Shown here: piece by piece, positions 14,190 through 33,861 of the stretch
Layout: each line of letters begins with the position of its first letter
Position numbering within the stretch: position 1 is the first letter of the stretch
Source: a virus
Length of the DNA: 42,526 nt
Virus record (IMG/VR): IMGVR_UViG_3300032289_001820
Location: 1-42,526 of that record
Direction: 5' to 3' (one strand)
The notes under the pieces: model-generated
The model's input: the letters and a program-made list of their open reading frames with translations, nothing else
What the model was told of the DNA's origin: nothing
Database searches by the model: none
Position numbers and translations under genes: made by a program

Positions 14190-14764
14190 CGTTCAATCTC
14201 CGAAATGATTTGAGCTAACTGCCCGGCGGTGAGTTCGCAGGGGCGCTTGATGACGACGCGCTTTCCTCGCACTTGGTAAATCGGCGTGGGCGTATCCAAA
14301 ACCTCGCGGATTTCTTGTGCGCTTCGCTTGTCTTCCAGCCAGGCCCTTTGCGCTCCGATGGATCGGATTTGGTCTCCATCAAAAACTTGCCTGCATTGCG
14401 CGGGCGTGAGGTTTTCAACGGCGACTTTTAGCAAGGAATGCTCTTTGCCCTCCAAAACCAAAAGCTCGACAGAAGCCTCGACGGCCCGCTTTTGCTCGCT
14501 GTATGGCAAGCGCACCAGGTGGCGAGCGGCGGGGTAGTCTGCCACAAGCAACCTCGGAATAAGCTGCTTGCGCCCAAGTTGCTCAAAGCGCGTCACGATA
14601 TCTTCGGTTAAAAACTCGGAGGTTTCCGCGATTTCCGAAATCGTCATTTGGTGTTCATCGAGAAGTTGAACGACCAACTCTCCGGCCTTGTTCCAGCATT
14701 CGATCCCCTGAGTAATCAGGGAAACAAACTCGGTGATTAGTGGTTTTTGTATGGTTTTTGTCAT
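14186..14764 (-). CDS. Helical protein with possible HTH, 192 aa, unknown
   Basis: Residues about 35-65 (HQMTISEIAETSEFLTEDIV then TRFEQLGRK) can be read as a helix-turn-helix, followed by LIPRLLVADYPAARHLVRLP. The middle has an SEQKRAVEASVELLVLEG segment and an LTPAQCRQVFDGDQIRS segment, and the C-terminus is basic (YQVRGKRVVIKRPCELTAGQ). The pattern looks like a DNA-associated host-takeover or replication accessory protein, but no family is named. It is the gene directly downstream of the AT-rich orphan and overlaps its stop (ATGA at 14761-14764), with normal GC-rich composition. Confidence 0.64.
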   Translation of the reverse strand: MTKTIQKPLITEFVSLITQGIECWNKAGELVVQLLDEHQMTISEIAETSEFLTEDIVTRFEQLGRKQLIPRLLVADYPAARHLVRLPYSEQKRAVEASVELLVLEGKEHSLLKVAVENLTPAQCRQVFDGDQIRSIGAQRAWLEDKRSAQEIREVLDTPTPIYQVRGKRVVIKRPCELTAGQLAQIISEIER

Positions 14765-15660
14765 GGTTGTGTTGCGTATTGTGCTGCTTTTTGAAGGTGC
14801 GCAAGGGCACCTAAATTTTTGAAAAAGGTCTTAGTGGCTTCACTAAGAGGCGCGATGCGCGAGATTTTCTTAATGTGTCTCGCGGCGGATTTTATGATGT
14901 CTTCTTGATAAACTTCTAATGGATAATCGTTATCAAATAGCCGCCATACAAATTCTCTCGGGTTGCCGGAGTAATTTTTCTTTCTATATCCGGTATATTT
15001 TCCCCATCCAATTTCGTATAATCCAGATAAATAGCCATACTTCGCAGTGGAAGAAGCAACTTTTTCCCAAGTTGGGCTAAGAGTTGTTTTATCAAAAGAA
15101 ACACATTCGTAGTCCCACAATTTAACACCTAGGGGAGTTCCGCTTACAAGATAGACATTACGCTCAAGAGCTTCTATTATACCTTTAGGCGCAAATAAAT
15201 TTTCATTATTATAGAAATCTTTGTATGTCTTAAAATACCATGGCCTTCGGACATGATACTGCCGAAAAAAAGGCCAAGGTTTACCAAATCCTTCATTTTT
15301 CCAAACAACCCCGCTAATAGGGCAAATAAATATTTTTTGAGAAAATTTTACATTGTGAACACAATACACGCTTTCGCTATGATTTGCTAAATGAGTGATT
15401 CTTTTATTATATTCACTTCCAGAAATTTCACTGTCAAAGAAATCGTTTTTATTTCTAAATTCTTTTTTATCTGCGCTTAAAATGTAGTCCAATGCGTGCT
15501 GAAAATTAAATGATGGAAATTTGCGACATGGCTTTTTCGCATTTACATCATAAATGATTTTATGAATTGCCTTTCCATTTCTGTAAAACCAACGATCAAA
15601 CACAACCCACCCATCTTGAAACTTCGGATATAATACTAAATCGCAGTTAATGGTTTTCAT
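14761..15660 (-). CDS. AT-rich orphan protein, 299 aa, probable acquired gene
   Basis: The start is the ATG at 15660, which overlaps the helicase stop as ATGA; the longer open frame to 16551 would run through the helicase. The protein begins MKTINCDLVLYPKFQDGWVV and is rich in aromatics, lysine and asparagine (KPWPFFRQYHVRRPWYFKT, YEIGWGKYTGYRKKNYSG). No signal peptide or transmembrane helix is seen. Composition breaks sharply: counted lines 15001-15060 and 15181-15240 have 25/60 and 15/60 G+C, whereas most neighbours are well above 60%. The last 20 residues return to normal composition. No family is recognised. It is probably a recently acquired moron that settled into the coupled string, with a host-interaction or defence role possible. 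Confidence 0.75.
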   Translation of the reverse strand: MKTINCDLVLYPKFQDGWVVFDRWFYRNGKAIHKIIYDVNAKKPCRKFPSFNFQHALDYILSADKKEFRNKNDFFDSEISGSEYNKRITHLANHSESVYCVHNVKFSQKIFICPISGVVWKNEGFGKPWPFFRQYHVRRPWYFKTYKDFYNNENLFAPKGIIEALERNVYLVSGTPLGVKLWDYECVSFDKTTLSPTWEKVASSTAKYGYLSGLYEIGWGKYTGYRKKNYSGNPREFVWRLFDNDYPLEVYQEDIIKSAARHIKKISRIAPLSEATKTFFKNLGALAHLQKAAQYATQP

Positions 15661-17021
15661 TTCTGCCTTTCGTTCTGGTTGTTGCTGTAAGCCTTTTCGG
15701 TGACATTGCGGAAGACGGTGTGCTGGCCGATGAAGTTGAGTTTGATCTCGGGGGTGGGGCCGTTTCTTTGTTTTGCTAAGATGAGCAAGGTGTTGTGATC
15801 CATGGGCTCTTCGTCGGCGTCGCGTTTTTTGTTTTTGTCTAGGCGGTGAATCAACAAAACGGTGTCGGCGTCTTGCTCGATGCTGCCGGACTCGCGGAGG
15901 TTCGAGAGCTTGGGCTTGGAGCCTTCGTCGGCGTCGCGGTTGAGCTGGGCGAGGGCGATGATGGGGATGTTTAACTCTTTGGCGGTGGTCTTGATGGCTT
16001 TGCTGATCTCGCTGACTTCGAGGGCGCGGCTCTCCCCTGCCCTTTTGGACGATCCGTGCATGAATTGCAGGTAATCGACGACGATGAGGCCGAGGCCGTG
16101 CTGGGTCTTGGCGCGGCGGGCGCGGGAGCGGAATTGGGCGACGGTGAGGCCGGGGGTGTCGTCGAGGTAGAGCTTGGCTTGGGCGACGCGGGCGGCGGCG
16201 GCTCCGACGCCGGAGAGCTGGGCGGTGCCAAGGAATCCGTCGCGGATGCGCTGGAGATCGACCCCGGCCTCGGAACAGAGGGCGCGGACCATGAGTTCGG
16301 TGCTGGGCATTTCGACGGAGAAAACGAGGGTGGGCACGGCGGCTTTCATGGCGGCGTGGAGGGCGAATTGCATCCCGAGCGCGGATTTGCCGCAGGCGGG
16401 GCGGGCGGCGATAACGATCATCTGGCCGCCGAGGAATCCGCCGGTGGAGCGGTCGAGATCGTGAATGCCGGTGGAGAGGCCGACGCATTGGCCTCGGTTC
16501 GCATAGACTTTCTCGATGTGATCGACGGCGGCGAGGACGGCGGTTTTGCAATGGGACACGGGGTTTTCCCTGGTGGATTGCTCGCGGAGGCCGTAGAGGG
16601 CGACTTCGCAGCGTTCCATGGCGTCGTCGGTGGTGAGGCCGGGGTCGTTGGCGGCTTCAGCCATGGCGAGGGCGGCGGAGCGCATGGCGCGGCGTCGCCA
16701 GATGTCGAGGACTTCGACGGCGTAGTAGCGCCAGTTGGCCGTGACGGCGAGGTCTTGGACGAGATCGGTGAGGCCGTGGTGGCCGCCGCACTCTTCGAGC
16801 TGGCCGAGTTTTTCCAACTCGGTGGTGACGAGGATGAGATCGACGGGCCGGGCCTCCTGGCGCATGGTGGCGAGGCAGGAGAGGATGAGGCGGTGGGCGG
16901 GGTGCGTGAGCTGGTCGGGGCTCACGACTTCGAGGACGGCATCGGCGTGGCGGCCATCGGCGATGGCGGCTCCGAGGACGGCCCGCTCGGCGAGGAGGTT
17001 TTCGGGTAGGGAGCTTTTCAT
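15657..17021 (-). CDS. dnaB: Replicative DNA helicase, DnaB family, 454 aa
   Basis: The hexameric helicase opens the fork for phage replication. The N-terminal primase-binding domain covers residues 1-150 (LPENLLAERAVLGAAIADG). The linker is followed by the RecA-like core: GLSTGIHDLDRSTGGFLGGQ (181-200), Walker A ARPACGKS (206-213, against the common ARPSMGKT), VFSVEMPSTELMVRAL (H1a), the Walker B region GLIVVDYLQFM, and an IIALAQLNRDADEGSKP segment (H3/H4) with SGSIEQDADTVLLIHR. All DnaB motifs are present and the length is normal. It is coupled to both neighbours and lies next to a replication-initiator-like gene, forming the replication module. Confidence 0.9.
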   Translation of the reverse strand: MKSSLPENLLAERAVLGAAIADGRHADAVLEVVSPDQLTHPAHRLILSCLATMRQEARPVDLILVTTELEKLGQLEECGGHHGLTDLVQDLAVTANWRYYAVEVLDIWRRRAMRSAALAMAEAANDPGLTTDDAMERCEVALYGLREQSTRENPVSHCKTAVLAAVDHIEKVYANRGQCVGLSTGIHDLDRSTGGFLGGQMIVIAARPACGKSALGMQFALHAAMKAAVPTLVFSVEMPSTELMVRALCSEAGVDLQRIRDGFLGTAQLSGVGAAAARVAQAKLYLDDTPGLTVAQFRSRARRAKTQHGLGLIVVDYLQFMHGSSKRAGESRALEVSEISKAIKTTAKELNIPIIALAQLNRDADEGSKPKLSNLRESGSIEQDADTVLLIHRLDKNKKRDADEEPMDHNTLLILAKQRNGPTPEIKLNFIGQHTVFRNVTEKAYSNNQNERQK

Positions 17022-20283: not shown

Positions 20284-20505
20284 TTACAGAGACGCGGCCA
20301 GCGGGCGACGGCCCCGGCGATGATGCACGACGCCACCCATACGGCCCTCGTCGAGAGCCCGCTGGACAGACGACTCGGGCACCAATATTCGCCCACCCAG
20401 GCGGACATGAGGCAGCGTGCCATCATAGAGCAGGGCATGGATCGCAGTCCGCGACAGGCTCAAGAGGCCGACTAGCTGTTTCGGCGAATAATGCTTTTCA
20501 ATCAT
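20284..20505 (-). CDS. Excisionase-family helix-turn-helix protein, 73 aa
   Basis: MIEKHYSPKQLVGLLSLSRT followed by AIHALLYDGTLPHVRLGGRI and LVPESSVQRALDEG is the HTH_17/excisionase motif: helix 'SPKQLVGLLSLSRTAIHALL', then the 'G..P.VR.GGRI.VPE..V...' wing. The C-terminus is arginine- and histidine-rich (VVHHRRGRRPLAASL). The start at 20505 overlaps the upstream stop (ATGA). Members act as excisionases or small regulators. Placed in the early leftward string, it is one of two excisionase-type candidates (the other at 10798-10950). Confidence 0.8.
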   Translation of the reverse strand: MIEKHYSPKQLVGLLSLSRTAIHALLYDGTLPHVRLGGRILVPESSVQRALDEGRMGGVVHHRRGRRPLAASL

Positions 20506-20609
20506 CGCGCCAGCCTCCAGGTCAACCCCGCCAAAAAAAGCGCCGGAGCCATCGCCCAGGCAAAATCCCAGGCATACCCGGCCAGCCTCAAAAAATCCGC
20601 CCCGCTCAT
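20502..20609 (-). CDS. Tiny hydrophobic membrane peptide, 35 aa
   Basis: The frame reads MSGADFLRLAGYAWDFAWAM and APALFLAGLTWRLAR, a single hydrophobic helix with a positive end. It overlaps both neighbours by ATGA (20606-20609 and 20502-20505), which is the main reason to accept so small a gene. A small single-span membrane protein (regulatory, or acting on the host membrane) is likely; it is too short for any family call. Confidence 0.5.
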   Translation of the reverse strand: MSGADFLRLAGYAWDFAWAMAPALFLAGLTWRLAR

Positions 20610-20752
20610 TTCTCCACCTCCACGGAAAAAGGCATAAGCCCAAAAATTTCAAAAAACCTCGCCCGAGCTGCTGCCGGGCTCACCGCCCGCACATAGTCCC
20701 CAAAAGGTCCGGTGAAAGGGTCCACCGCCCGGCATAAAAAAAGGCGGCTCAT
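20606..20752 (-). CDS. Small protein, 48 aa
   Basis: It reads MSRLFLCRAVDPFTGPFGDY and continues with an R-rich helix (AARARFFEIFGLMPF). It is overlapped by ATGA on both sides (20749-20752, 20606-20609) within the leftward early string. No signal peptide and no family are seen. Coupled position supports it as real. Confidence 0.5.
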   Translation of the reverse strand: MSRLFLCRAVDPFTGPFGDYVRAVSPAAARARFFEIFGLMPFSVEVEK

Positions 20753-20898
20753 ATTGCCGCCTCCTGTGCCTTGGACTTAGCGACCGCCTTGACTAACAAC
20801 TGCCGCACGATGGCGGCCCGGCTCACCATCTGGCGCTTGGCCAGGGCGGTGATGATCAAATCGACCTCTGCGGGGACTTGGGTTTGAATAGTTTTCAT
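20749..20898 (-). CDS. Ribbon-helix-helix regulator, 49 aa
   Basis: MKTIQTQVPAEVDLIITALA opens with a TIQTQVP beta strand, then helix KRQMVSRAAIVRQLLVKAVA. This is the CopG/Arc/MetJ ribbon-helix-helix pattern: one strand that forms a two-stranded sheet in the dimer, then two helices. It is the first gene of the leftward unit and is read away from a second ribbon-helix-helix gene at 21006. The gap between them carries paired CTTATAAG palindromes. It is probably one half of the lysis-lysogeny switch, binding those sites as dimers. The start at 20898 follows an A/C-rich leader. Confidence 0.75.
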   Translation of the reverse strand: MKTIQTQVPAEVDLIITALAKRQMVSRAAIVRQLLVKAVAKSKAQEAAI

Positions 20899-20933
20899 TT
20901 TGTTTGCCTGAGGCATTCACCCCAGTTGCAAAA

Positions 20934-20956
20934 TTTCTTATAAGAAATCTTATAAG
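20934..20956. promoter_or_regulatory. Paired palindromic operators CTTATAAG in the divergent control region
   Basis: A perfect 14-bp palindrome TTTCTTATAAGAAA spans 20934-20947. Its core CTTATAAG (20937-20944) repeats at 20949-20956, with centres 12 bp apart. Ribbon-helix-helix repressors bind such closely spaced sub-sites as adjacent dimers. The sites sit between the two divergent ribbon-helix-helix genes and probably overlap both promoters. Confidence 0.62.
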
Positions 20957-21005
20957 CGTCAAACAAAAAAATTGAAAAACTTTGAAAATCTTTGAAGTTG
21001 ATTCC

Positions 21006-21326
21006 ATGCCCAAAAAAACCAACGGACCCGGCAAGGATTCCGTTCTCATCAGCACTTCGGTCGATAATTCGACATTTCAAGAAATCATACGCCTCGCCGC
21101 TGAAAGCGGCATGACCAAAGGCGGCTGGGCTCGCGCCGCCCTTACCGACGCCGCAAAAGAACACGCCGTATTCAAACAACAAAAAACAACCAGCTTTCAA
21201 AAAACGGGAAAAGCCTCGCCCCAGAGCAAGAACCCAAGTGCTGGTGCAAAGACCCTAAGAGCGTCCGAGAATTTCGCTTCTACGCCCTCAACAGCTACAG
21301 GGAAAAACTCCCTCCTGGATGGATAG
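21006..21326 (+). CDS. Ribbon-helix-helix-like regulator, 106 aa
   Basis: The start is the ATG at 21006 (MPKKTNGPGKDSVLISTSVD), preceded by a T/A-rich leader without Shine-Dalgarno. After the basic leader, SVLISTSVDNSTFQEIIRLA and AESGMTKGGWARAALTDAAK give strand-helix-helix as in ribbon-helix-helix DNA-binding proteins. The C-terminal 50 residues are S/K/T-rich and probably disordered. It leads the rightward lysogeny unit and is read opposite the 49-residue ribbon-helix-helix protein, so it is the likely lysogeny repressor or its antagonist. Which of the two acts as repressor cannot be said. Confidence 0.66.
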   Translation: MPKKTNGPGKDSVLISTSVDNSTFQEIIRLAAESGMTKGGWARAALTDAAKEHAVFKQQKTTSFQKTGKASPQSKNPSAGAKTLRASENFASTPSTATGKNSLLDG

Positions 21327-21367
21327 GCCAGATCCACGACCTCACCAGCCACCAGCCACCAGCCACA

Positions 21368-21781
21368 ATGAAACCACTCCTCGCCCTGCTCGCCCTCCTT
21401 CTTGCGGCCTGCGCCAGCCCTGAGCCTGAGACCTACGCACCCCGCGCCATCGCCGCCCATGCCCCCATGGAAATCCTCATCGAGACCAGCCCCGCAGGCG
21501 GAATTGTCGATTGGAACGGGAATGTTCTAGGCGCGGCCCCCGTCACTTTAAAAATCCGCCCCGACACCACTTTCGCAGGCCGTCCCCGATGGCCCGAGAC
21601 CGGAGCCCTCACCCACTATTTCCGCGCTCGATGGCCCAACGGAGCCCGCGCCTTTGAGCTTTTCCAGCCCGCCGAAATGCCACCCCAGCACATCGCCATC
21701 GTGTGCCCTGGCGCAGCCAATCCCCTACTCGATTCCCTCCGAGCCGACGCCCGCACACTCACGCAGAAAAAAACCCGCTGA
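21368..21781 (+). CDS. PEGA-like lipoprotein, 137 aa
   Basis: A bacterial lipoprotein signal is clear: MKPLLALLALLLAACASPEP ends in the lipobox LAAC with Cys at residue 15, so the mature protein is lipid-anchored and, with no Asp at +2, probably sent to the outer membrane. Residues about 35-65 (METSPAGG-like IETSPAGGIVDWNGNVLG, then AAPVTLKI) resemble the PEGA domain, a surface beta module with the same 'SxPxGAxVxxNGxxxGxTPxxxxL' pattern. Carried in the lysogeny module, it could be a conversion or superinfection-exclusion factor. The next gene begins about 200 bases later. Confidence 0.75.
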   Translation: MKPLLALLALLLAACASPEPETYAPRAIAAHAPMEILIETSPAGGIVDWNGNVLGAAPVTLKIRPDTTFAGRPRWPETGALTHYFRARWPNGARAFELFQPAEMPPQHIAIVCPGAANPLLDSLRADARTLTQKKTR

Positions 21782-21978: not shown

Positions 21979-22479
21979 ATGATCACCTACTCATCCATCT
22001 CCGGCGGACGCACCGCCAGCCGCTCCCGCCGGGCGCAAATCGCCGAACTCGATGGCCGCATGCCCGCCACCCGCGCCGCCAAATCGTGGGGATTCAAATC
22101 CGCCGCCGCTTTGAAAAAGTGGGTCCGCTCCACCGAGTGGCACCATGTCGGCAAATTCGGCACGATAACCGACTACTACGATGTTTACGAATTTGTCCGC
22201 GAGGCTGATTTCATCGACCTCACCGAGCTCGTCGGCCTGTCCTCCGACCTCACCGCCAAAGGCCGCGAGCAGGTCCTCGCCCCCATAGTTCAAAATTTCG
22301 TTGCCTACAATCTGCGCCCGAGCAAAATCTGGCCCCGCGACACCACCGCCAATTTAACCAGGCACCTCATCGCCAAAGGTTGCGACCTATCAAACACCCG
22401 CACTTTCAAAATCCTGAACGCCATAAAAAAAGGCAGCACCCTCCAAACCGAAATCCAAAAACTCCCAAAAAAATCATGA
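21979..22479 (+). CDS. Hypothetical protein, 166 aa
   Basis: MITYSSISGGRTASRSRRAQ is followed by IAELDGRMPATRAAKSWGFK and SAAALKKWVRSTEWHHVGKF, in which ATRAAKSWGFKSAAALKKWV could be a weak helix-turn-helix. The middle is helical with hydrophobic patches (DFIDLTELVGLSSDL). The C-terminus is basic (LNAIKKGSTLQTEIQKLPKK). The gene starts 10 bases after a hairpin motif and overlaps the next start (ATGA at 22476-22479). Probable lysogeny or early regulator, function unknown. Confidence 0.65.
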   Translation: MITYSSISGGRTASRSRRAQIAELDGRMPATRAAKSWGFKSAAALKKWVRSTEWHHVGKFGTITDYYDVYEFVREADFIDLTELVGLSSDLTAKGREQVLAPIVQNFVAYNLRPSKIWPRDTTANLTRHLIAKGCDLSNTRTFKILNAIKKGSTLQTEIQKLPKKS

Positions 22480-23919: not shown

Positions 23920-24015
23920 TTCCGCCCTTTTCCCTAGGCAAAAATCAGATGTTGTGGGGCAAATATGGCTTAGAGGCTTTTCTATTGTTTCTGGATTTTT
24001 GATGTTTTGCTGTTC

Positions 24016-24051
24016 AAAGTGGCTACCAAAGTGGCGACCCAAGTGGCGACC
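24016..24051. repeat. Three tandem 12-bp repeats before the integrase gene
   Basis: AAAGTGGCTACC (24016), AAAGTGGCGACC (24028) and CAAGTGGCGACC (24040) end six bases before the integrase ATG at 24058. They can serve as right-arm integrase sites and could also let integrase control its own promoter. Confidence 0.72.
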
Positions 24052-24057
24052 CATCCT

Positions 24058-25152
24058 ATGAGAAAACACGGCGAGATTTCAGTTGAATGGAGGAAGGCGA
24101 AAAATACCTGGTATTATCGCGTCCAACTTAATGGCAAGCGGCCCGCTTATTCGACGGGCGTTCACCAACACACGGCGGCGGGCGAGATGGCGGCGATAGC
24201 GAAGGCCAAGCAGCTCCACGCGGCGATGGCCAGCAAGGATCAGCACAAACTTTCTGCCGTGGTGAGGCGTCCAGGCTATGCCACGGCTGGGGAGATCGTG
24301 GACCGGTTCAAGCTCCACGGCCCTGGCGGATCGGCGGTGAAGGCTGCGAGCGGGTTTGCCAAGTATGTTGCCGAGGCCAGCGGCAAGGCGGATTGGCGCG
24401 GCGTGTCCTCTCATTCGGTTCTCACGGCTCCGGTCTTGAGGAATTGGATCACGGTGCGGCTGGCTGCGGGCTGCACCGAGGCGGGCGTGCGGTCGAGTGT
24501 GCAGACGGTCAAGCAAGTGGTGGCCCAGCGGCGGATGCACCTCTTCGCGGATTTGACGCTGCCGGATTTGACGGAGTTCTGGAAAGTCTCTGGCGGAAAA
24601 GCCCAGGATCAAAGCTATGAGCCCATTCCCCGCGACATCCTGCGGCGGATGGATGCGGCGGCGAGGATTCCTCTGCGTCGGGAAAATCCCCGAGTGTGGG
24701 CGATTTACTGGCTCATGCGGCGGGCGGGGTTGCGAAACTCCGAGGTGGCCAAGCTGCGGTGGGATTGGGTGGATTGGCTTCCCAACAAGCGCGGCGTGGA
24801 TTTGGTTCTCATCAAGCGCCCCGACTTTCACAGCAAAAATGGAAAGTATGGCCGAGTGCCTGCGAATCTCCGCCTGATGCGGTTGATCCAGGCCACGCTT
24901 GGCGAGGGCGAGTATGTGATTCCCCGCGCTCACAAGACCGAGGCCGACGACCTGACCCACGACGGCATCAATGATTTTGTGCGGCGCTTCATCCCCGACG
25001 GCGCGAAGGGAGCCTATAATCTGCGAAAGGAATACGGCAGCCGCATCGCTCAGCGGGACGGCCTGGAGGTTGCGGCCAAGCTGCTGCGCGACTCGATGGA
25101 TGTCGTCGAGAAGCACTACCACGCCCTGCTGGAAAGGCCGAAGCCGCTTTAG
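24058..25152 (+). CDS. int: Tyrosine recombinase integrase, 364 aa
   Basis: The start is the ATG at 24058; the frame is open further up but would translate the repeats. Residues 1-55 (RKAKNTWYYRVQLNGKRPAY then STGVHQHT) form an AP2-like arm-binding domain. A core-binding helical domain follows. The catalytic domain has R226 in RRAGLRNSEVAKLRW, K260 or K263 in FHSKNGKYGRVPAN, R323 in AYNLRKEYGSRI and the nucleophile Y354 in EKHYHALLER. The two histidines of the usual R-K-H-R-H-Y set are replaced, Y320 for the first H of HxxR and D345 for the second H. It should catalyse integration at the adjacent tRNA-like attP. It is convergent with the 2008-residue gene, overlapping by 4 bases. Confidence 0.88.
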   Translation: MRKHGEISVEWRKAKNTWYYRVQLNGKRPAYSTGVHQHTAAGEMAAIAKAKQLHAAMASKDQHKLSAVVRRPGYATAGEIVDRFKLHGPGGSAVKAASGFAKYVAEASGKADWRGVSSHSVLTAPVLRNWITVRLAAGCTEAGVRSSVQTVKQVVAQRRMHLFADLTLPDLTEFWKVSGGKAQDQSYEPIPRDILRRMDAAARIPLRRENPRVWAIYWLMRRAGLRNSEVAKLRWDWVDWLPNKRGVDLVLIKRPDFHSKNGKYGRVPANLRLMRLIQATLGEGEYVIPRAHKTEADDLTHDGINDFVRRFIPDGAKGAYNLRKEYGSRIAQRDGLEVAAKLLRDSMDVVEKHYHALLERPKPL

Positions 25153-28100
25153 CGGGCTTTGTAGAGTTTGCTGTGTTGGACTAGGCCACGGATGGCGGAT
25201 TGCGCGGCGGCGCGGTTGCCAAACTCCATGTTGGTTTCCACCTCGTCCATGGCTTGCCGGTAGGTGCGATACCATTGGCCGAGTTCGTAGTAGCGCAAAG
25301 TTTCGCGGTCGCTGCGGTTCTCGCCTCGGTTTTTGAGGTAGTTGTATTCGGTGCGGAGGCCGTTCACCTGGTCGGGGAGCGAGAGTCGGACCTTGGCCAT
25401 GTCGCGCTTGTCGGCTTCGTCGGCTTTGGCTTCGCTTTGATAAACGCCTCGGTCGCTGATTTTGATGAACCGATTCAGAATAGGCGCGGCGCTGAGGGTT
25501 GTTTCGGTGAGCGTGTCGGCCTTGGGATCGTAGGTGAAAAAGTTGGTGATGCCGGTTTGCTCCAGCGTCCAGCCGAGCATGGGCTTGGTGGCATCCCATC
25601 CCCCGGCGAGCCATTGGTCGTCGGAGAGGATGTAGCGGTTGCGGAAATCATCACGCGGATTGCGGCCTGCCAGGAAGGTTGTCCAGTTCTGGCCGAGTTC
25701 GAGGATGGTGTTGGTGCCGGGGACTTGGGAGCTGATGCCTGCGAAAACCTCGCCGAGTTGCGGCGCGGAGGGATCGCCTTTGGCGGAGCGGATGGCCGAG
25801 GTGAGCATTTTACTCACGACGCCGTTGATGACGCGCAGCCCTTCATCTTGTGGAAGGCGGGCATAGACGGTCTTGCCGCCGGTCTCGCCGGTGGGGACTT
25901 CGCCGAGGGGCAGCACGGCAAAGTTCGTCATGTCCCAAGCAGGCACGCGGGAGTAGAGCTTTTCGAGGTCTTTGCCGAAGAGTCCTTCTTTGGCGAGGGT
26001 TTGCAGGACAGCGATAAGGCCGCCGCCGGTGAGCGCCCAGGCCAGCCACCATTCCTTGCCCCCCATGTTGCGCTCGGCTCCTCGGAGGTTGCGTTGCAGG
26101 GAATCGTAGGAGCGGAGGAAGATGTTGAGAAACGGCACCAGCGCACCAGCGGCTTGGGCGTGGCGGCCTTTCTTGTAGTAGTTCGGGATGCCGATGTGGT
26201 TGCGGATGGTGTTGGCTGCTTGCGGCGCGGGGATGCCGGTATCTTTGACCAGGACTTTGTAGGCGGCGGCTTTGGGTAGGAGTTGCAGGACTTGCCCGGC
26301 AAACTCGATGCCTTTGAGCGGGGCCATGAGAGCTCGGACAAAACCATTTCGGGATTGCTGATCTTGCAGGTGATACTTGCGGAGGATGGCGTCGAGGCTG
26401 TCGTCGTCGCTCCCCATGCGGCCACCGAAGGCGCTGTGCGGTCCGCCTGTGGCGGCGTTCTCAATCATCTCGCGGAGGAGTTCGGTCTTGCCGATGTCTC
26501 CCCTCGCCCATTCCACGGAGGCTCCCCAGGTTTCGGGATCGAGGAGGCGCTGGAGGAAACGGGCGCGGCCTTGGATGCCGCCAGGCATGTTGGTGATGGA
26601 TCGTTGAAGGTCGCGGGCGGGCGACATGAAAAGCTGGAAGGCCGGGTTGTAGCGGATGATCGCGCCATAGACGAGGCGTTGGAATCCCGTCGAGAGGAGC
26701 TTAAGAATGGCGTCGCGCTCGGCGGGGGATTGATCCTCCCACATGCGGGCGTAGCGGTCGGGGAGGTGAACGCCGGTGAGTTGGCCATCGTCCTTCCATT
26801 GCACCAGGGTAAAGCCAGTTTCTTGTGACTCCTGCGGCACCATGGCTTTGCCGTTGTATTTCATGGGCGCGGGCTTCACCAGCTCTGGCGCGGTCTGGCG
26901 GATCGCCTCCACGGCGGCGCGTTTGAATCGGTTATTCTGCGCGGCGCGGTGGATGCTGATGGATTTAAGCACCGTTTGCTGGAGCGGGTCGGCGATTTCC
27001 TTGAAGGTTCCCACCTGCTTGCGGATGGCCGAGGGTAGATACTCCTGCACATATTCCAGCGGGGTGAAGGCGGCGTAGTTGTCGCGGTTGGCGCTGATGA
27101 TTTCCCAGAGGTCGGCAGAGAAAAGCCCGGCGTCGTTCGCATCCTCCATGATGGTGAAAACAACATCGCGGAATCCCGCGACGGCGGATTCGAGGGCGGC
27201 GGTTTTATCAGGGCCGAGGCGCTGCTGGAGCGAGGCGAGCATTTCGGCGGAGGTGCGGGCGGTCTCGCCGCCAGGGTTGGCCATTACGGCGCGGCCTTTC
27301 TCCACCGTGAGATCCATTCCTTTGATCTTCTCAGTGACTTCGTAGCGTTCGTTGGCGATGCGGTGATGCTTGAGCCAGACGCCGAAATAATCACGCGGCA
27401 CGCCTGCCGCATCGAGGCTTTGGTAGAGACGGCCAATGTCGGCGAGCTTGAGCTGGAGCTTGCTGTCGGCCAGCGGGTGCTCCTCGGTGAGCCAGCGGAT
27501 GCCGTCCTCCGACGCCTTGGTGATGGTGCCAGCGGCGCGGGCCTTGGCGGCGGACTCGATGAGCGGTTGGTAGCGGTTCCAGTATTGGTCTTTGAGGTTT
27601 TCCCACCAGCCGGTGAGGCTGGCGCGGCGCTCGGCAGCGGCGGCCTGCTTGCCAACGAAAACCTCGGCTCCTGCCTTGAAGGATTCCAGGTCGCGGGCGA
27701 GGCGCTTGTCCAGCACAGCATCGCGGCCCATGAGGATGCGGTTTTGAATCTCGAAGATGCTGGCCTTCACCTGCGGGCGGGCGTCGGCGTAGTTCCAGAA
27801 GGCTTTGTAAAATACGGGGGCGCGGGCTTGGAGGTCCGCCGGGGAGTTGAAGAGCACGCTGATGGCGTCGGCGTAGAGTTCTTCGGCGCTGTGTCGGTAG
27901 TCCACATAGCTATCCTTGGCATCGTCATAGCTGAAGGGCTTCCACCATTCGGATAGGTTGATGAGTTCTTCGCGGATGTTCGGCGAGTAGCCGCCTTGCT
28001 TCTCGGAGACAGCGCCAAGGTTTCGAGTGTCCATGGTTTGCTGCACAAGCTCGCGGTAGCGGGTGGTGCGGGCGTCGGGATCGGAAGGATTCTCGGCCTT

Positions 28101-31100
28101 GGCTTGAGCTTGGAGCTTGCGGCGGTCGGCAGTGGTAAGGGCCGGGCCTGCGCCGGGCGTTATTGGAAAAGTGGTCTTGAGATAGTTAGCCACATTCATG
28201 ATGTGGCCGCCGAGGTTGCCGAGCTTAATGTTGCGCTCATCCATCCAGCTCACCAGGTGGCCGATCTCGTGGGCGAAGGTCATCATGGCACTGGCTTCGT
28301 TTTGGAAAAGGTCAGGCCGGAGCGTGATGATGCCGGAGCCGGGGTTGAATGTGCCGAGGGCTTTGGGCATTCGTTTCAACTTCGGGTCGTTGCCGGTGAG
28401 GGAGCGCACCATTTCTACCAGCTCGGGCATTTCCATGACGGGCACCTTGTCCGTGCCGCCGAGGATCAGAGGCATCGTCCAGCCGCTGCTTTTTGTGGAA
28501 CGCACCACGCCAACGGCATCGGGGAAGTCGGCGAAGACTTGAGCGTCGTTGTAGGTTTCGAGCGGTGGCTTGGGGAGCGTGGCGGTGGTGGGAAGGAGCG
28601 GGGCGGGCGGCCCGGCGTCGGCCATCGACTTGCCGCCTCGGGAGGATTTGGCGGGGGGACCGGCATCGGCAAAGGCCATGTTGGTTTGGCTTTTCTGCGC
28701 TTCCTCGTAGGCGGCTTGCTGGCGGTTGGCTTCGTCGGCTTCGCGTTGCAGCTTTAAGCTGTCGTCATCCAGCGGGCGGTCGAGGCTGAATGGCATTTCG
28801 CCAGGGGTAAAAAGATTGCCTGAGAAGGGTTCGGCTTGCGGTGCGGCGGCGGGCGCGGTGTCGGTCTCAGTGAGAAATGAGAAGCCATCATCCTGTGAGG
28901 GGGAGATTTCGGTTTCCTGCACCCACATTTGCGTGCCGTCTTCCACTTTCTGGAGGCCAAACTTTGCGCCGTCTTCCAGGGAAATGGTGAAGGTCTCGGG
29001 GTCGATGGCTTTCACATTGAGCCATTCGTCTGCGATCTTCACGCGGTCGCCGATCTTGAGGTCGCTGGTTGTGACCGGTTGCAGGTTGGATTTCTTGGTC
29101 TTCGAGGGGTCGAGGGCTTGTTTAGTGAAGGTGTCGTATTGCTTTTGGATTTTATTTTGCTCGGCCTCGGTGGGGTCGCCATCCTTGATTTGACGGTAGC
29201 TATTGACCTCCGCCATGTAGGCGTTGAACAAAGTATCCGGCGAGGGGTCGGGCAATAAACCTTGCTCGAAGAGTTCTTGGGCGCGGACATCGTAGGGTTG
29301 GCCTGTCGAGCGGTGGGTCTCGGCGAAGTGCCTGCCGGTGCGGCGGATTTCGTTCCAAAAATCATTTTCTCCGCCCGCCGTGCCGCTTTTGCTCGGGCGC
29401 ATCGGGCTTTCTTGAAGCGCGGAAAGGATAGGAAATGGGCCGGGATCGTAGGAGATGCGGGGGAACTGGCGCTTGGGCTTGGCGGGCGGCGGAGTGGTGG
29501 CCCCCTCCCCGGCGATCACTTCGGGTGAGCCTGTCAGTTCAGGCGCTGTTGGTGCGCTTGCTGCGGGAGCAGAGGCGGTTGGGGGAATGTCGTCAACCAG
29601 CGTGGCGGTGGTGGGGTCGAAGGGGATGATGTTCGACGGCTCGGCAGCGGGTCCTGGTAAAGCAGGCACGCCCTCGGGGCCGGGCAGGGCGTTGGTGCCG
29701 CCTTGGAAAGCTGGCGCGGGGCCGCCTCGGTTGAGGAAGGCTTGGCCGGTGTAGGCGGCAGGGCTTCCAGAAAGCGGCACGGCGGCTTGGGGATTCTCGG
29801 CGGCGTAGGCCAAGGCGGGCTGGCCTGCGGGAGGAGCGAATCCTGCATCGGCCAAGGCGGATTGCTGGAAGCGGGGGTTGATGATCTCGGTGGTATCGAG
29901 GAAGCGGAAGCCTGCGGCGTCCACGGTGGCGCGGCGGATGGCTTGGGCATCGAGGAGGCGTTCATCGGCGCGGAGGGTATCCACGGCTTGGCGCATGACT
30001 CGGTAGTCCTCGGCCTCTTGGCGGGTGGCGCGTCCGGTTTTGACCTGGGATTCAAGTGTGACCAATTCCTCGGGGGCGTAGGTTTTATTGCGAGCCTTTA
30101 CCCCGAGGCCCGCGCCGAGGCCGCCGAAGATGGCGGAGATGCCGGTGCTGGCGGGGTTGTATTGCGGGCGGGGGGCGAGTTGTTCGCCGGTCTGGCGGAA
30201 ATGCTCCATCGCCACTTCCTTGCTGATGTCTTGGTGCAGGAGTTTATCGAGGCCGAGGTTGCCGACTTGGATCGTGGCGTCGGTAGCCACGCCGATGCCT
30301 GCGCCTGCGCCGAAGGCTCCGGTGACAAACTTGGCGGCGGCGGCGCTGCCTTTCTCGGCTTGGATGAGATTGGCGGCATTCGCCAGGCGGGAGATGGAAA
30401 CGGGCGTGGGGGCGAGGATCGAGACGAGCTGGCCGCCGGTGTTGTAGCCGGGCTTGAGTTGGTTCGCGGCGTAGAAGCTATCGAGCAGGTCGCTTTCCTT
30501 GGAGGAAAGTTCGAGGAGCTTGTCGTAGGCGGCTCCGGTGCCGAGCGCGGCGGCGGTGCCTGCGCCAATGCCAACGGCGATGGCCCCCGGTCCAGTAAAG
30601 CCGGTGGCTGTGGCGGCGGCTCCCCCTCCCACGATGGCGGCTCCGGTTTGCATGGCTCCTTTGAGCAAGCCGGAGGCGGCGGCTTTGGCTTCGGGGAAAG
30701 CTCCGGCGCGGCGCTCCAAGTCGCGGCGGGCGGCGGTGGCTTTCTCCACCGAGGGGATCACGGTGCGGGTGGCTTCGTCCCATTGATCCACGGTGCCTTT
30801 CTGGAGCTGGGTGTAGGAGTCGGAGTCGATCACCCCGGCGGACCACAGATTCTCGACGGCGGAGTTGTAGCGAGCGGGGTCGATGTAGATGCGGCCTTCG
30901 AGGACTTTCCAAGATTGGCTGCCCTCGGGGAAAATCCCCTCTTCGCGGATAAGTTGATCCTCGCGCATCCCGGCATCGCGGGCGGCATCGAGTTCGGGAT
31001 TCGGTGCGGGCAATGGCGAAGGCGTGGCAGCGGGCAAGGCGGGCTCGTCCTCGACAAGAACGGCGGTGGTGGGATCGAATCCCATCGGTTCCTCCTCCGC

Positions 31101-31175
31101 CGGCACGGCAGAGGCGGCATCGAAATCAGCCGGTTCGTCCTCGATGAGAACGGCGGTGGAGGGATCGAAACTCAT
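25149..31175 (-). CDS. Large polyvalent internal-virion protein with zincin motif, 2008 aa
   Basis: The ATG at 31175 overlaps the upstream stop (ATGA); the TTG two codons earlier is less likely. The motif FDP[ST]TA.L..D occurs three times: near residues 3, 33 and 515. Residues about 175-215 are glycine- and alanine-rich and hydrophobic (GAAIVGGGAAATATGFTGPG), possibly membrane-active. HEIGH at about 969-973 (FAHEIGHLVSWMDE) is the HExxH zinc-metallopeptidase signature. The C-terminal 600 residues (IGIPNYYKKGRHAQAAGALV, then FLNIFLRSYDSLQRNL) resemble the LPD38-type end of large polyvalent phage proteins. Such proteins ride in the head and are injected to assist DNA entry or attack host targets. 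It is the last gene of the leftward unit. The role is inferred from family habits. Confidence 0.72.
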   Translation of the reverse strand: MSFDPSTAVLIEDEPADFDAASAVPAEEEPMGFDPTTAVLVEDEPALPAATPSPLPAPNPELDAARDAGMREDQLIREEGIFPEGSQSWKVLEGRIYIDPARYNSAVENLWSAGVIDSDSYTQLQKGTVDQWDEATRTVIPSVEKATAARRDLERRAGAFPEAKAAASGLLKGAMQTGAAIVGGGAAATATGFTGPGAIAVGIGAGTAAALGTGAAYDKLLELSSKESDLLDSFYAANQLKPGYNTGGQLVSILAPTPVSISRLANAANLIQAEKGSAAAAKFVTGAFGAGAGIGVATDATIQVGNLGLDKLLHQDISKEVAMEHFRQTGEQLAPRPQYNPASTGISAIFGGLGAGLGVKARNKTYAPEELVTLESQVKTGRATRQEAEDYRVMRQAVDTLRADERLLDAQAIRRATVDAAGFRFLDTTEIINPRFQQSALADAGFAPPAGQPALAYAAENPQAAVPLSGSPAAYTGQAFLNRGGPAPAFQGGTNALPGPEGVPALPGPAAEPSNIIPFDPTTATLVDDIPPTASAPAASAPTAPELTGSPEVIAGEGATTPPPAKPKRQFPRISYDPGPFPILSALQESPMRPSKSGTAGGENDFWNEIRRTGRHFAETHRSTGQPYDVRAQELFEQGLLPDPSPDTLFNAYMAEVNSYRQIKDGDPTEAEQNKIQKQYDTFTKQALDPSKTKKSNLQPVTTSDLKIGDRVKIADEWLNVKAIDPETFTISLEDGAKFGLQKVEDGTQMWVQETEISPSQDDGFSFLTETDTAPAAAPQAEPFSGNLFTPGEMPFSLDRPLDDDSLKLQREADEANRQQAAYEEAQKSQTNMAFADAGPPAKSSRGGKSMADAGPPAPLLPTTATLPKPPLETYNDAQVFADFPDAVGVVRSTKSSGWTMPLILGGTDKVPVMEMPELVEMVRSLTGNDPKLKRMPKALGTFNPGSGIITLRPDLFQNEASAMMTFAHEIGHLVSWMDERNIKLGNLGGHIMNVANYLKTTFPITPGAGPALTTADRRKLQAQAKAENPSDPDARTTRYRELVQQTMDTRNLGAVSEKQGGYSPNIREELINLSEWWKPFSYDDAKDSYVDYRHSAEELYADAISVLFNSPADLQARAPVFYKAFWNYADARPQVKASIFEIQNRILMGRDAVLDKRLARDLESFKAGAEVFVGKQAAAAERRASLTGWWENLKDQYWNRYQPLIESAAKARAAGTITKASEDGIRWLTEEHPLADSKLQLKLADIGRLYQSLDAAGVPRDYFGVWLKHHRIANERYEVTEKIKGMDLTVEKGRAVMANPGGETARTSAEMLASLQQRLGPDKTAALESAVAGFRDVVFTIMEDANDAGLFSADLWEIISANRDNYAAFTPLEYVQEYLPSAIRKQVGTFKEIADPLQQTVLKSISIHRAAQNNRFKRAAVEAIRQTAPELVKPAPMKYNGKAMVPQESQETGFTLVQWKDDGQLTGVHLPDRYARMWEDQSPAERDAILKLLSTGFQRLVYGAIIRYNPAFQLFMSPARDLQRSITNMPGGIQGRARFLQRLLDPETWGASVEWARGDIGKTELLREMIENAATGGPHSAFGGRMGSDDDSLDAILRKYHLQDQQSRNGFVRALMAPLKGIEFAGQVLQLLPKAAAYKVLVKDTGIPAPQAANTIRNHIGIPNYYKKGRHAQAAGALVPFLNIFLRSYDSLQRNLRGAERNMGGKEWWLAWALTGGGLIAVLQTLAKEGLFGKDLEKLYSRVPAWDMTNFAVLPLGEVPTGETGGKTVYARLPQDEGLRVINGVVSKMLTSAIRSAKGDPSAPQLGEVFAGISSQVPGTNTILELGQNWTTFLAGRNPRDDFRNRYILSDDQWLAGGWDATKPMLGWTLEQTGITNFFTYDPKADTLTETTLSAAPILNRFIKISDRGVYQSEAKADEADKRDMAKVRLSLPDQVNGLRTEYNYLKNRGENRSDRETLRYYELGQWYRTYRQAMDEVETNMEFGNRAAAQSAIRGLVQHSKLYKAR

Positions 31176-32221
31176 TTCCAAGCATCGTTGCCACGGTAGG
31201 TTTTTACATTGCCAGCGGCATCGCGGTAGCGTTTGCCGACTTGGAATTTCTCAGGCGTGGGCATGGGGTTCGGGCGGGGAGTTTGTGAAGGGGCGGCGGA
31301 GCGGGTGGCAGGCGTCGGCGCTGGCGTGGCAGCGGGCGCGGGGGAGGATTTGGAGGAGCGGTTCACGGGGCGGATGGCGACTTCGATGCGTTTGTCGAAA
31401 TCAGATTTCTCGCTTTCCAGTTGCTTGCGGAGGGAAGCCACCTTGGTTCCGCCGAGCCACCCGGCAGGCTCATAGGTGCCGGTCTCGTCGTTGTAGGCCA
31501 CAGATTCCGCCTCGGTAAAACGAGTGAGATCCGTGAGGCGAGCGCCGACATTTTCACTCTGGAGCTGGAGGCGTTTGATGTTGTCCTCTTGCGTAGCGGA
31601 AAGTTTCGCGGGGCCGCGAACGGCTTCCCCGCTGTTTTCATAATATGCCGGGAAGCTGCGGCCCGTGAGCGGGTCGATCATAACCATGGTGCCATCCTCG
31701 GCTTGCTTGATTTCCTTCTTCACAGGCTCCGGTTGTTTATCTGCTTCAATTCGCTGGCCATTTGCAAAATACACCGTGCGGCCATCGGGCAGGGCTACGG
31801 TCTGAACTTGCGAAGCGCGGGCTTGCTTCACGCTGGCTTGGTAAATGCGGAGGGCATCGCTGGCGCGGAGGCGACCGCCCGAGGCTTTGGCAGCGCGAAT
31901 GACTTCCTTCTCATGCGGCGAGAGGGCGGCCCATTGTTCCTTGCTGGTAATGCGGAGGCTGGCTCCCTGGGCGAGTCGGGCGGCGACGGCATCGAAAGGC
32001 TCGTCGTCTTGACCCGCCACGGCATCGAGGGCTTGGCCCACCGGTTGTTGCTGGGTGGCCGGATCGACGGCATCAAACGCTGCCGATAAGGGCATGATGT
32101 TATTTGGATCAGCGTCGGCAGAGGGGTTCACCGGGAGCGGCACAACTTGGTCGTTGTCGAGATTGGCCTGCCGTGGAAGCGGCACGGAATTTACAAAAGC
32201 GTTTTGTGCGGGGGAGGCCAT
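31172..32221 (-). CDS. Internal virion protein candidate, 349 aa
   Basis: MASPAQNAFVNSVPLPRQAN leads into a low-complexity leader and a helical middle (HEKEVIRAAKASGGRLRASD, then KRLQLQSENVGARLTDLTRF). A 'VMIDPLTGRSFPAYYE' segment lies near residue 200. The C-terminal 80 residues are A/P/T-rich (PAPAATPAPTPATRSAAP) followed by KFQVGKRYRDAAGNVKTYRG, a small beta module seen at the ends of phage structural proteins. It is coupled to the 2008-residue protein (ATGA at 31172-31175) and probably travels with it in the virion. No family is recognised. Confidence 0.64.
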   Translation of the reverse strand: MASPAQNAFVNSVPLPRQANLDNDQVVPLPVNPSADADPNNIMPLSAAFDAVDPATQQQPVGQALDAVAGQDDEPFDAVAARLAQGASLRITSKEQWAALSPHEKEVIRAAKASGGRLRASDALRIYQASVKQARASQVQTVALPDGRTVYFANGQRIEADKQPEPVKKEIKQAEDGTMVMIDPLTGRSFPAYYENSGEAVRGPAKLSATQEDNIKRLQLQSENVGARLTDLTRFTEAESVAYNDETGTYEPAGWLGGTKVASLRKQLESEKSDFDKRIEVAIRPVNRSSKSSPAPAATPAPTPATRSAAPSQTPRPNPMPTPEKFQVGKRYRDAAGNVKTYRGNDAWK

Positions 32222-32737: not shown

Positions 32738-33031
32738 TTAGGGGGTTGGGAGGTTTTGGGATTGGCGGGCTTCTAAGCAGAGAGGGCTACCGGGCTGGAA
32801 GGACCGGCAGGCGGATGGGCGTGATTCGTATATTGCGCAGGCGACTCCTCGGCCCACCGCGCCACGGAGGGCGATGCAGCGTGCGCAGGGTGAGGTTTTG
32901 AGCAGAGGGTAGTCGGTGCGGAGGTATTCGGCAGGGATGCCGGTGGCGTCGGAGCGGTCGCGCCGGAGCACGGGCCAACTCCACTTGTGGCTGCAACATG
33001 CGCCACACCGTTGACAATCGTATTGTTCCAT
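32738..33031 (-). CDS. YkgJ-type cysteine-cluster protein, 97 aa
   Basis: MEQYDCQRCGACCSHKWSWP is the typical YkgJ/UPF0153 opening, with cysteines at 6, 9, 12 and 13, then SPCARCIAL (49, 52), GVACAIYESRPSACRSF (65, 75) and LCLEA (85). The family binds zinc or iron-sulphur and is often linked to metal or sulphur chemistry. Its ATG at 33031 is in a different frame inside the 3' end of the PAPS-reductase-like gene, so 259 bases are shared. The cysteine pattern proves this frame is coding. The pairing with a sulphur-related enzyme hints at joint work on a thiol or metal step. Confidence 0.75.
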   Translation of the reverse strand: MEQYDCQRCGACCSHKWSWPVLRRDRSDATGIPAEYLRTDYPLLKTSPCARCIALRGAVGRGVACAIYESRPSACRSFQPGSPLCLEARQSQNLPTP

Positions 33032-33861
33032 GTGGGCTGAAATCCTTGGGTGGCGCTGGAGAAGTCGATGTAGGGGGCGAGGTGGGAGATGTTGTTGGTG
33101 GAGGCGCGGAGCTTGGGGCAGTGGACGACGGGTCCGGCGTGGCGGTTCACGCAGTTGAAGCAGACGGGGTAGTAGTCGGCGTTGGAGGATTTGTCGGGAT
33201 TGTGCTGCCAGGTGTTGTGGATTTTCTGGTAGCGGGTCGGGTCGTTGGGGACGCCTTCGGCTTCGAGGTAGGACCAGACATCGGCATCGGTCCACTCGCG
33301 CATGGGGTAGAATTGCCAAGGGGCGTCGTCGGGGCGGACGACATCTTGCGCGAGGGGGACTTGGCCTTTGATGAGATCGACATCGGCGCTTTTCTGGCCA
33401 TGAAAGACGGCATCCCACGGGAAGTTAAACCGACCGGTGGGGCGTTGCAGAGCATCGAGTCCGCAGAGGTAGCGGTTTGTTTCGATGTCAAAAGGTGTGG
33501 GGGGCTCGGTGCCTAAAAAGAGGAGCAGGACTTTGTGAGGGGCCATCTCGTAGGCTTTGACGAAATCGAATCGCGGGGCTCCGGTCTCGATGTCGTAGCC
33601 GTCTTGGATGCCGTATGCGTAGGGGGTGTAGTCGTGCATCTCCAGGTCCCACTCGCGGGCGAGGAAGTCGCTGTGGGCGTAGCGGTGGCGGTGGCGGGGT
33701 TCGCGCCATTGGATGACGGGCAGCTTTGCCCCTACCTTGAAAAAAAGGAGGTGGAGCATGGCGGTGGAGTCTTTGCCCCCACTCCAGAGCACGGCGGGGT
33801 TGTTGACCTGAGAAAGCCAGGCTTCGATTTTGGCCGTGGTTTGGCGAATGAGTTCGTGCAT
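32773..33861 (-). CDS. PAPS-reductase-like PP-loop protein, 362 aa as called
   Basis: The PP-loop ATPase motif SGGKDS lies at residues 27-32 in NPAVLWSGGKDSTAMLHL. LPVIQWREPRHRHRYAHSDF and the PWDAVFHGQKSADVDLIKGQ segment fit the phosphoadenosine phosphosulphate reductase (CysH/DndC-like) fold. WQFYPMREWTDADVWSYLE is a conserved family block. Near residues 225-245 a VCFNCVNR...HC cluster replaces the CysH ECGLH tail. The last 85 residues are the out-of-frame shadow of the YkgJ-type gene and probably not part of the ancestral protein, so a stop near 33030 may have been lost. Such phage proteins may serve nucleic-acid thiolation or nucleotide sulphur chemistry; this is not proven. Confidence 0.78.
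   Translation of the reverse strand: MHELIRQTTAKIEAWLSQVNNPAVLWSGGKDSTAMLHLLFFKVGAKLPVIQWREPRHRHRYAHSDFLAREWDLEMHDYTPYAYGIQDGYDIETGAPRFDFVKAYEMAPHKVLLLFLGTEPPTPFDIETNRYLCGLDALQRPTGRFNFPWDAVFHGQKSADVDLIKGQVPLAQDVVRPDDAPWQFYPMREWTDADVWSYLEAEGVPNDPTRYQKIHNTWQHNPDKSSNADYYPVCFNCVNRHAGPVVHCPKLRASTNNISHLAPYIDFSSATQGFQPTWNNTIVNGVAHVAATSGVGPCSGATAPTPPASLPNTSAPTTLCSKPHPAHAASPSVARWAEESPAQYTNHAHPPAGPSSPVALSA

Follow-up and report, generated by a model that had tools for sequence, protein, structure and literature searches.

A divergent pair of ribbon-helix-helix regulators and a conserved −1 frameshift domain in a putative immunity region of Verrucomicrobiota phages

The control of lysis and lysogeny is known mostly from systems built on helix-turn-helix (HTH) proteins. 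In phage lambda, the divergent regulators cI and Cro act around shared operators, and their cassette is exchanged between similar phages. Mnt and Arc of phage P22 are both ribbon-helix-helix (RHH) proteins and are divergently transcribed, and to our knowledge no frameshift domain exists in either of them. P22 is also a case in which two small repressors of one phage jointly control one region (PMC2629481). With F55 of SSV1, a 55-aa RHH protein that keeps the virus lysogenic via repeated sites at early promoters (PMC9608457), Mnt and Arc provide a precedent for lysogeny regulators of this fold. F55 differs from the locus described here, as it belongs to an archaeal fusellovirus, uses 11-nt sites and contacts RadA, and the review's description of it includes neither a divergent RHH partner nor a frameshift (PMC9608457).

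Frameshifting has been reported in a lysogeny regulator gene, cro of Lactobacillus phage A2, where a −1 shift seen when the gene is decoded in E. coli shortens the product by 12 aa and is reported to have no apparent relevance in the natural host (PMC5009743). Heptamers of the class GGGAAAN occur in phage G-T tail genes and in the Ig-domain frameshifts of T3 and A2; the Ig domain is a mobile C-terminal domain joined by frameshift to varying proteins (PMC5009743). No paper on programmed frameshifting with RHH phage proteins was found in a collection of open-licence papers.

The DNA analysed here, called the window, is a 42,526-bp IMG/VR virus record. With a probability of about two in three, it contains the immunity or early-control region of a temperate Verrucomicrobiota phage, in which two RHH proteins, RHH1 and RHH2, would act at the operator O2, and RHH2 would be made in two forms by ribosome slippage. 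The features of the locus are the following.

20287–20505, minus strand: HTH_17 excisionase-like gene (Pfam HTH_17, E 3e-8; PHROG excisionase; synteny)
20609–20752, minus strand: orf48, a small, conserved gene that overlaps the stop of RHH1 and keeps its position in every long relative compared
20749–20898, minus strand: RHH1, a 49-aa RHH protein (open reading frame with ATG at 20898 and stop at 20749)
20937–20956, no strand assigned: operator O2, CTTATAAG AAAT CTTATAAG, in which two palindromic 8-bp boxes make up a near-perfect dyad of 20 bp
21006–21326, plus strand: RHH2, zero-frame product of 106 aa (open reading frame with ATG at 21006 and stop at 21324–21326)
21206–21212, plus strand: slippery heptamer G GGA AAA (zero-frame codons GGA AAA), from in-register conservation
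21206–21349, plus strand: −1 frame domain (FSD), GKSLAPEQEPKCWCKDPKSVREFRFYALNSYREKLPPGWIGQIHDLTS, from profile and selection
21324–21326, plus strand: zero-frame stop TAG, lying across the −1 codons ATA-GGC, from NTA-codon bias
21368–21781, plus strand: lipoprotein gene with a weak PEGA match, 3′ of RHH2 and sharing the reading frame of the −1 domain
24007–25152, plus strand: tyrosine integrase (PHROG integrase, E 1.6e-13)

The original prediction, made from the letters of this DNA, described a 49-residue RHH protein facing one of 106 residues, and both genes are present at these lengths. RHH1 opens the leftward (excisionase-like/replication) operon and has matches at 24 IMG/VR loci; RHH2 has 29. 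The Pfam RHH_1 profile finds the window RHH1 with an E of 0.007, under the curated cut-off, and RHH1 of close relatives exceeds this cut-off (about 21 bits vs 20.5), so that profile comparison assigns RHH1 to the RHH (CopG/Arc/MetJ) fold. In the zero-frame product of RHH2, the predicted RHH domain spans approximately residues 11–55 and is followed by an unconserved tail. The window RHH2 has no match in Pfam, and one relative matches RHH_1 below cut-off (E 0.0018, 18.6 bits). An AlphaFold model of RHH2 (pLDDT about 75, over the RHH part only) contains two helices, the beta strand not being formed in the single chain. Foldseek searches with this model place CopG best, with Rv0298, Arc and ParG also at the top, and nearly all matches are RHH proteins (E about 1, probability up to 0.96). 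The RHH fold predicted for RHH2 is based on this model and on the match of the relative.

With its two RHH genes diverging from one operator region, the locus reproduces the layout of P22 immI, in which two small RHH regulators also share one control region, and the position of RHH1 is Cro/Arc-like. Mnt and Arc, however, regulate ant, an antirepressor gene, alongside a separate c2/cro switch, whereas neither ant nor an HTH switch was found here: no P22 ant-like antirepressor is present among the proteins scanned, and the genes that follow RHH1 are orf48, the HTH_17 gene, p289 and replication genes. Unlike immI, the locus leads to replication genes on one side and to an integrase on the other. 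Some RHH1-like partners match HicB, CopG-antitoxin or RelB, mostly below cut-off, and RHH1 and RHH2 could accordingly be read as antitoxins of toxin–antitoxin modules. This reading is hardly credible, since the neighbours are orf48, the HTH_17 excisionase-like gene, the lipoprotein gene and the integrase, without a recognisable toxin, and no toxin family appears among the window proteins scanned.

Leftwards, the genes are orf48, HTH_17, p289, an exonuclease, a replication initiator and DnaB, then terminase and major head protein; rightwards, they are RHH2, the lipoprotein gene, small ORFs and the integrase. In relatives with enough sequence the order dnaB-exo-p289-xis-orf48-RHH1 facing RHH2/−1 domain-lipoprotein-integrase is fixed, and the integrase lies downstream of RHH2 in 9/9 IMG/VR relatives. 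The prediction that the locus lacks a cI- or Cro-like HTH pair is borne out by the window, which has no HTH_3 match above cut-off and no match to Peptidase_S24. A separate repressor elsewhere would speak against an RHH switch, and none of cI or LexA type was found.

Between RHH1 and RHH2, two CTTATAAG boxes (20937–20944 and 20949–20956) stand 12 bp apart from start to start, as had been predicted, and are the only two in the 42,526 bases of the window, against 0.12 expected. Both boxes together form one dyad. Dyads of the relatives, also intergenic, read CTTATAAG-AATT-CTTATAAG, CTTAAAAG-AATT-CTTTTAAG or CTATACAG-AAT-CTGTATAG, so the dyad persists while the box sequence varies. Other classes carry a single TTCTAATTAGAA, which is one palindrome instead of two boxes, or a tandem TTTCTCGTGAG (CTCGTGAG box), and a fifth type, TTTCCAATTGGAAA, was read by eye in locus L031. 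Two direct CTTATAAG repeats were discarded as the essential feature; the site is better described as a dyad of boxes, because relatives carry inverted 8-mers (CTTAAAAG/CTTTTAAG and CTATACAG/CTGTATAG), the CTCGTGAG class being still a direct repeat. The divergent RHH/RHH arrangement with its box pair, for which a search in related prophages had been suggested, recurs in about 30 close relatives.

The type of operator box tracks the type of RHH2 beta strand in four classes comprising 30 loci, with zero exceptions; as these loci are related and not independent, weight is put on the number of classes and not on that of loci.

RHH2 strand KDSV[LI]ISTSVD: box CTTATAAG or CTTAAAAG
RHH2 strand KNR[IA]V[AV]STTVD: box CTATACAG
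RHH2 strand KG[MR]ANVSTT[IV]D: box TTCTAATTAGAA
RHH2 strand GSVSISTSVD: box CTCGTGAG

This covariation points to a putative RHH-type operator that would be bound through the beta ribbon. Within the available sequence, the box is confined to the O2 site in 5 of the 6 loci tested. A promoter scan gave no sigma-70 match above chance; candidate promoters overlapping O2 were recognised by eye (TTGCAA-18-TATAAG rightward and TTGTTT-18-TATAAG leftward). In the CTCGTGAG class (L067–L072), a near copy of the operator occurs within the RHH1 coding sequence (position 2854 in L070) and is possibly a second binding site. Another palindrome, of GGGGTGATCACCCC type, lies near the RHH1 start (20910–20923 in the window, GGGGTGAATGCCTC on the minus strand) and also upstream of RHH1 in relatives such as L101, L103 and L108. 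It was rejected as an RHH1 operator, as it is not specific to RHH1 and is kept among unrelated RHH1 families.

Exchange of the regulatory cassette as a unit between related phages, as known for lambda, is observed here. Locus L026 (CTATACAG class) and loci L019/L020 (CTTAAAAG class) have flanks that are mostly 83–100% identical, with a few other dips, and identity falls to 48–68% across ~360 bp, from about 9660 to 10019 of L026. This divergent cassette comprises the slippery site, the RHH2 N-terminus, the operator and the first codons of RHH1. Over the same stretch, L026 is 97–100% identical to L025, a member of its own class, though the two differ around it. The cassette behaves as expected of an immunity region, and immunity is what it would encode. 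Divergent regulators, a shared operator and cassette exchange are the likenesses to lambda; the differences are that the proteins are RHH and not HTH, that the operator is a single dyad of two boxes, and that no RecA-cleavable S24 domain was found.

The RHH pair might instead regulate local operons, through excision or CopG-like copy control, with lysogeny maintained by a host factor or by a repressor that has escaped recognition. Plasmid copy number, conjugation and antitoxin genes are often under the control of RHH proteins, the link of the present pair to lysogeny is drawn from sequence, and the box occurs only here, so that the regulon would be this region alone. Against this stand the cassette, exchanged like a heteroimmune region, and the flanking operons, which carry replication and excisionase genes and the integrase, as those controlled by a switch do. 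There is also no other repressor candidate: p166 (21979–22479) is present in only one relative compared, and the HTH of p289 is weak. Local control is judged unlikely, and a lysogeny switch remains the preferred reading.

A second, hidden part of RHH2 came to light on reading RHH2 genes in all frames, where a conserved protein is seen in the −1 frame. The 106-aa ORF of the original prediction stands; its description as a single protein is incomplete, as the sequence indicates two products made via −1 frameshifting. A heptamer of the form X XXY YYZ lies in register with both ORFs and reads GGGAAA[A/C] in all 29 close RHH2 genes whose region is complete; the fused product of the window reads ...SFQKTGKSLAPEQEPKCWCKDPKSVREFRFYALNSYREKLPPGWIGQIHDLTS. 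A profile of the −1 domain matched 132 IMG/VR loci, of which 80 were kept, representing 75 distinct ones. Two of these are cut at the contig end; the other 73 are assessable, and each of them has the domain in frame −1 relative to an RHH-like ORF. GGGAAA[A/G] is in register in 58 of the 73. The −1 ORF has no start codon of its own between the upstream stop and the slippery site, in the window or in most loci, and independent translation was rejected on this ground. Modelled by itself, the domain is a single helix (pLDDT 72). A zinc ribbon (CxxC) was considered and dropped, the cysteines not being kept in all members.

The −1 frame is under purifying selection, as judged from 65 distinct cores. 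Variation is concentrated at third positions of the −1 codons (permutation p 0.0009, a value that ignores relatedness). The zero-frame tail of RHH2 has a pN/pS of about 1, also in a smaller set, and the RHH part, taken as a control, has 0.39 in frame zero. The −1 codon that follows PxxW is NTA (mostly ATA) in 60/65 distinct loci, and NTA|G preserves the zero-frame stop. Elsewhere ATA is rare: it accounts for 7 of 128 Ile codons in the core and for none of the 62 in three large genes of the window. Given the −1 frame ratios and these rare codons, both ends, −1 and zero-frame, appear selected.

A selected zero-frame stop could also suit another reading, in which the −1 domain reflects incidental slippage or is a remnant, and RHH2 acts as the 106-aa zero-frame protein alone. 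The same may be said of the 15 of 73 loci that have only A-rich sites and of the lack of a conserved downstream RNA stimulator: folding 3′ of the heptamer gave no structure common to the loci (mean z −0.19). Yet in the −1 frame pN/pS is 0.55 up to the zero-frame stop and 0.29 beyond it, vs 1.03 and 0.73 in frame zero; the heptamer is retained with unrelated upstream sequences; and recombinants always keep the −1 join. Incidental slippage is thus very improbable, and these sequence patterns speak strongly for programmed −1 frameshifting in a phage regulator.

The recombinants arise by exchange of the RHH2 N-terminal and −1 halves at the slippery site, as illustrated by three pairs of loci.

Window and L064: N-terminal half 93% identical, −1 half 52%
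L064 and L084: N-terminal half 44% identical, −1 half 100%
L072 and L068: N-terminal half 100% identical, −1 half 66%

The upstream halves are diverse. Of ten tested, one is above the RHH_1 cut-off and the others match RHH_1, RHH_5 or Arc below cut-off or, in several cases, nothing, which is why their RHH nature comes partly from reading the sequence. In A2 cro the shift shortens the product, whereas here it adds a conserved domain and is found in many lineages. The G-T and Ig-domain frameshifts use a heptamer of the class seen here and serve structural proteins, and the varying partners of the present domain are RHH-like DNA-binding domains.

The proposed mechanism is as follows. Two RHH2 dimers would bind the palindromic boxes of O2, shutting the leftward excisionase/replication operon and also regulating the RHH2 gene itself. 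RHH1, as the first product of the leftward operon, would be the opposing Cro/Arc-like regulator at the O2 region. RHH2 is most likely the repressor and RHH1 the opposing early regulator, a direction and function that we infer. Ribosomes that stay in frame on the RHH2 mRNA would end at TAG 21324–21326, and others, slipping by −1 on G GGA AAA, would append the conserved domain of 44–48 aa. As both forms share the DNA-binding half, the rate of slippage would set the ratio of the repressor forms. Oligomerisation or sensing is the most likely role of the added domain. A broader proposal is offered tentatively, as possible rather than probable: widespread temperate phages may set lysis–lysogeny by the rate of ribosome slippage in repressor mRNA, the RHH half carrying either a plain tail or a sensing/oligomerising domain. 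Immunity specificity would then evolve through exchange of the DNA-binding half at the slippery site, and the switch would directly read the translation state of the host.

Ordinary gene finding would miss the true C-terminal domain of these regulators, which is hidden in the −1 frame at over 70 loci. The RHH pair, its specificity classes and the conserved frameshift form a natural series in which to test how a genetic switch evolves, both in its DNA specificity and in its translational recoding.

The probable hosts of this integrase-carrying phage family are Verrucomicrobiota of Chthoniobacter/Terrimicrobium type. The −1 domain is present in a Chthoniobacter flavus MAG and in a Terrimicrobiaceae MAG, and a search of 213 genomes from the host order found it in 5, one of these (G044) being a weak and probably chance match. 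Another locus from this search, L172, has the −1 domain without a readable RHH half. On the Chthoniobacter MAG contig, smc-, thioredoxin-reductase- and glycosyltransferase-like genes, named from their translations, adjoin phage genes. This is what a prophage looks like, although on a single MAG contig a chimera is possible. The temperate life style is suggested by the integrase and by this relative joined to bacterial genes. Phage GenBank records gave no useful DNA match, and the RHH1 alignment had no match in genome contigs. Most of the more distant families examined have an RHH-like divergent partner, its RHH-like nature resting partly on reading of the sequence.

Several further observations concern the surroundings of the locus. 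The lipoprotein gene with the weak PEGA match adjoins RHH2 in the relatives compared and is possibly a lysogenic-conversion or superinfection-exclusion gene. In the window, the −1 frame is open from the slippery site through the FSD into the lipoprotein gene (21206–21781), and a repressor–lipoprotein fusion is possible there; roughly 12 of the 29 close relatives have such an open frame, and in the rest a stop follows shortly after DLTS. In L063, L064, L073, L081 and L084 the −1 domain is separated from the lipoprotein gene by a 21-nt tandem repeat (SHQPPAT), whose copy number varies widely. Elsewhere in the window, GC drops to 41% at 15001–16000, beside dnaB, in a genome otherwise of ~60% GC, accompanied by a 296-aa ORF (14761–15651) that has no PHROG match. 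A leftward ORF of 2010 aa (25149–31181) adjoins the integrase and reads like a large virion or injected protein. The ORF at 32773–33861 partially matches phosphoadenosine phosphosulfate reductase PHROGs (E 1e-10 over 45 residues).
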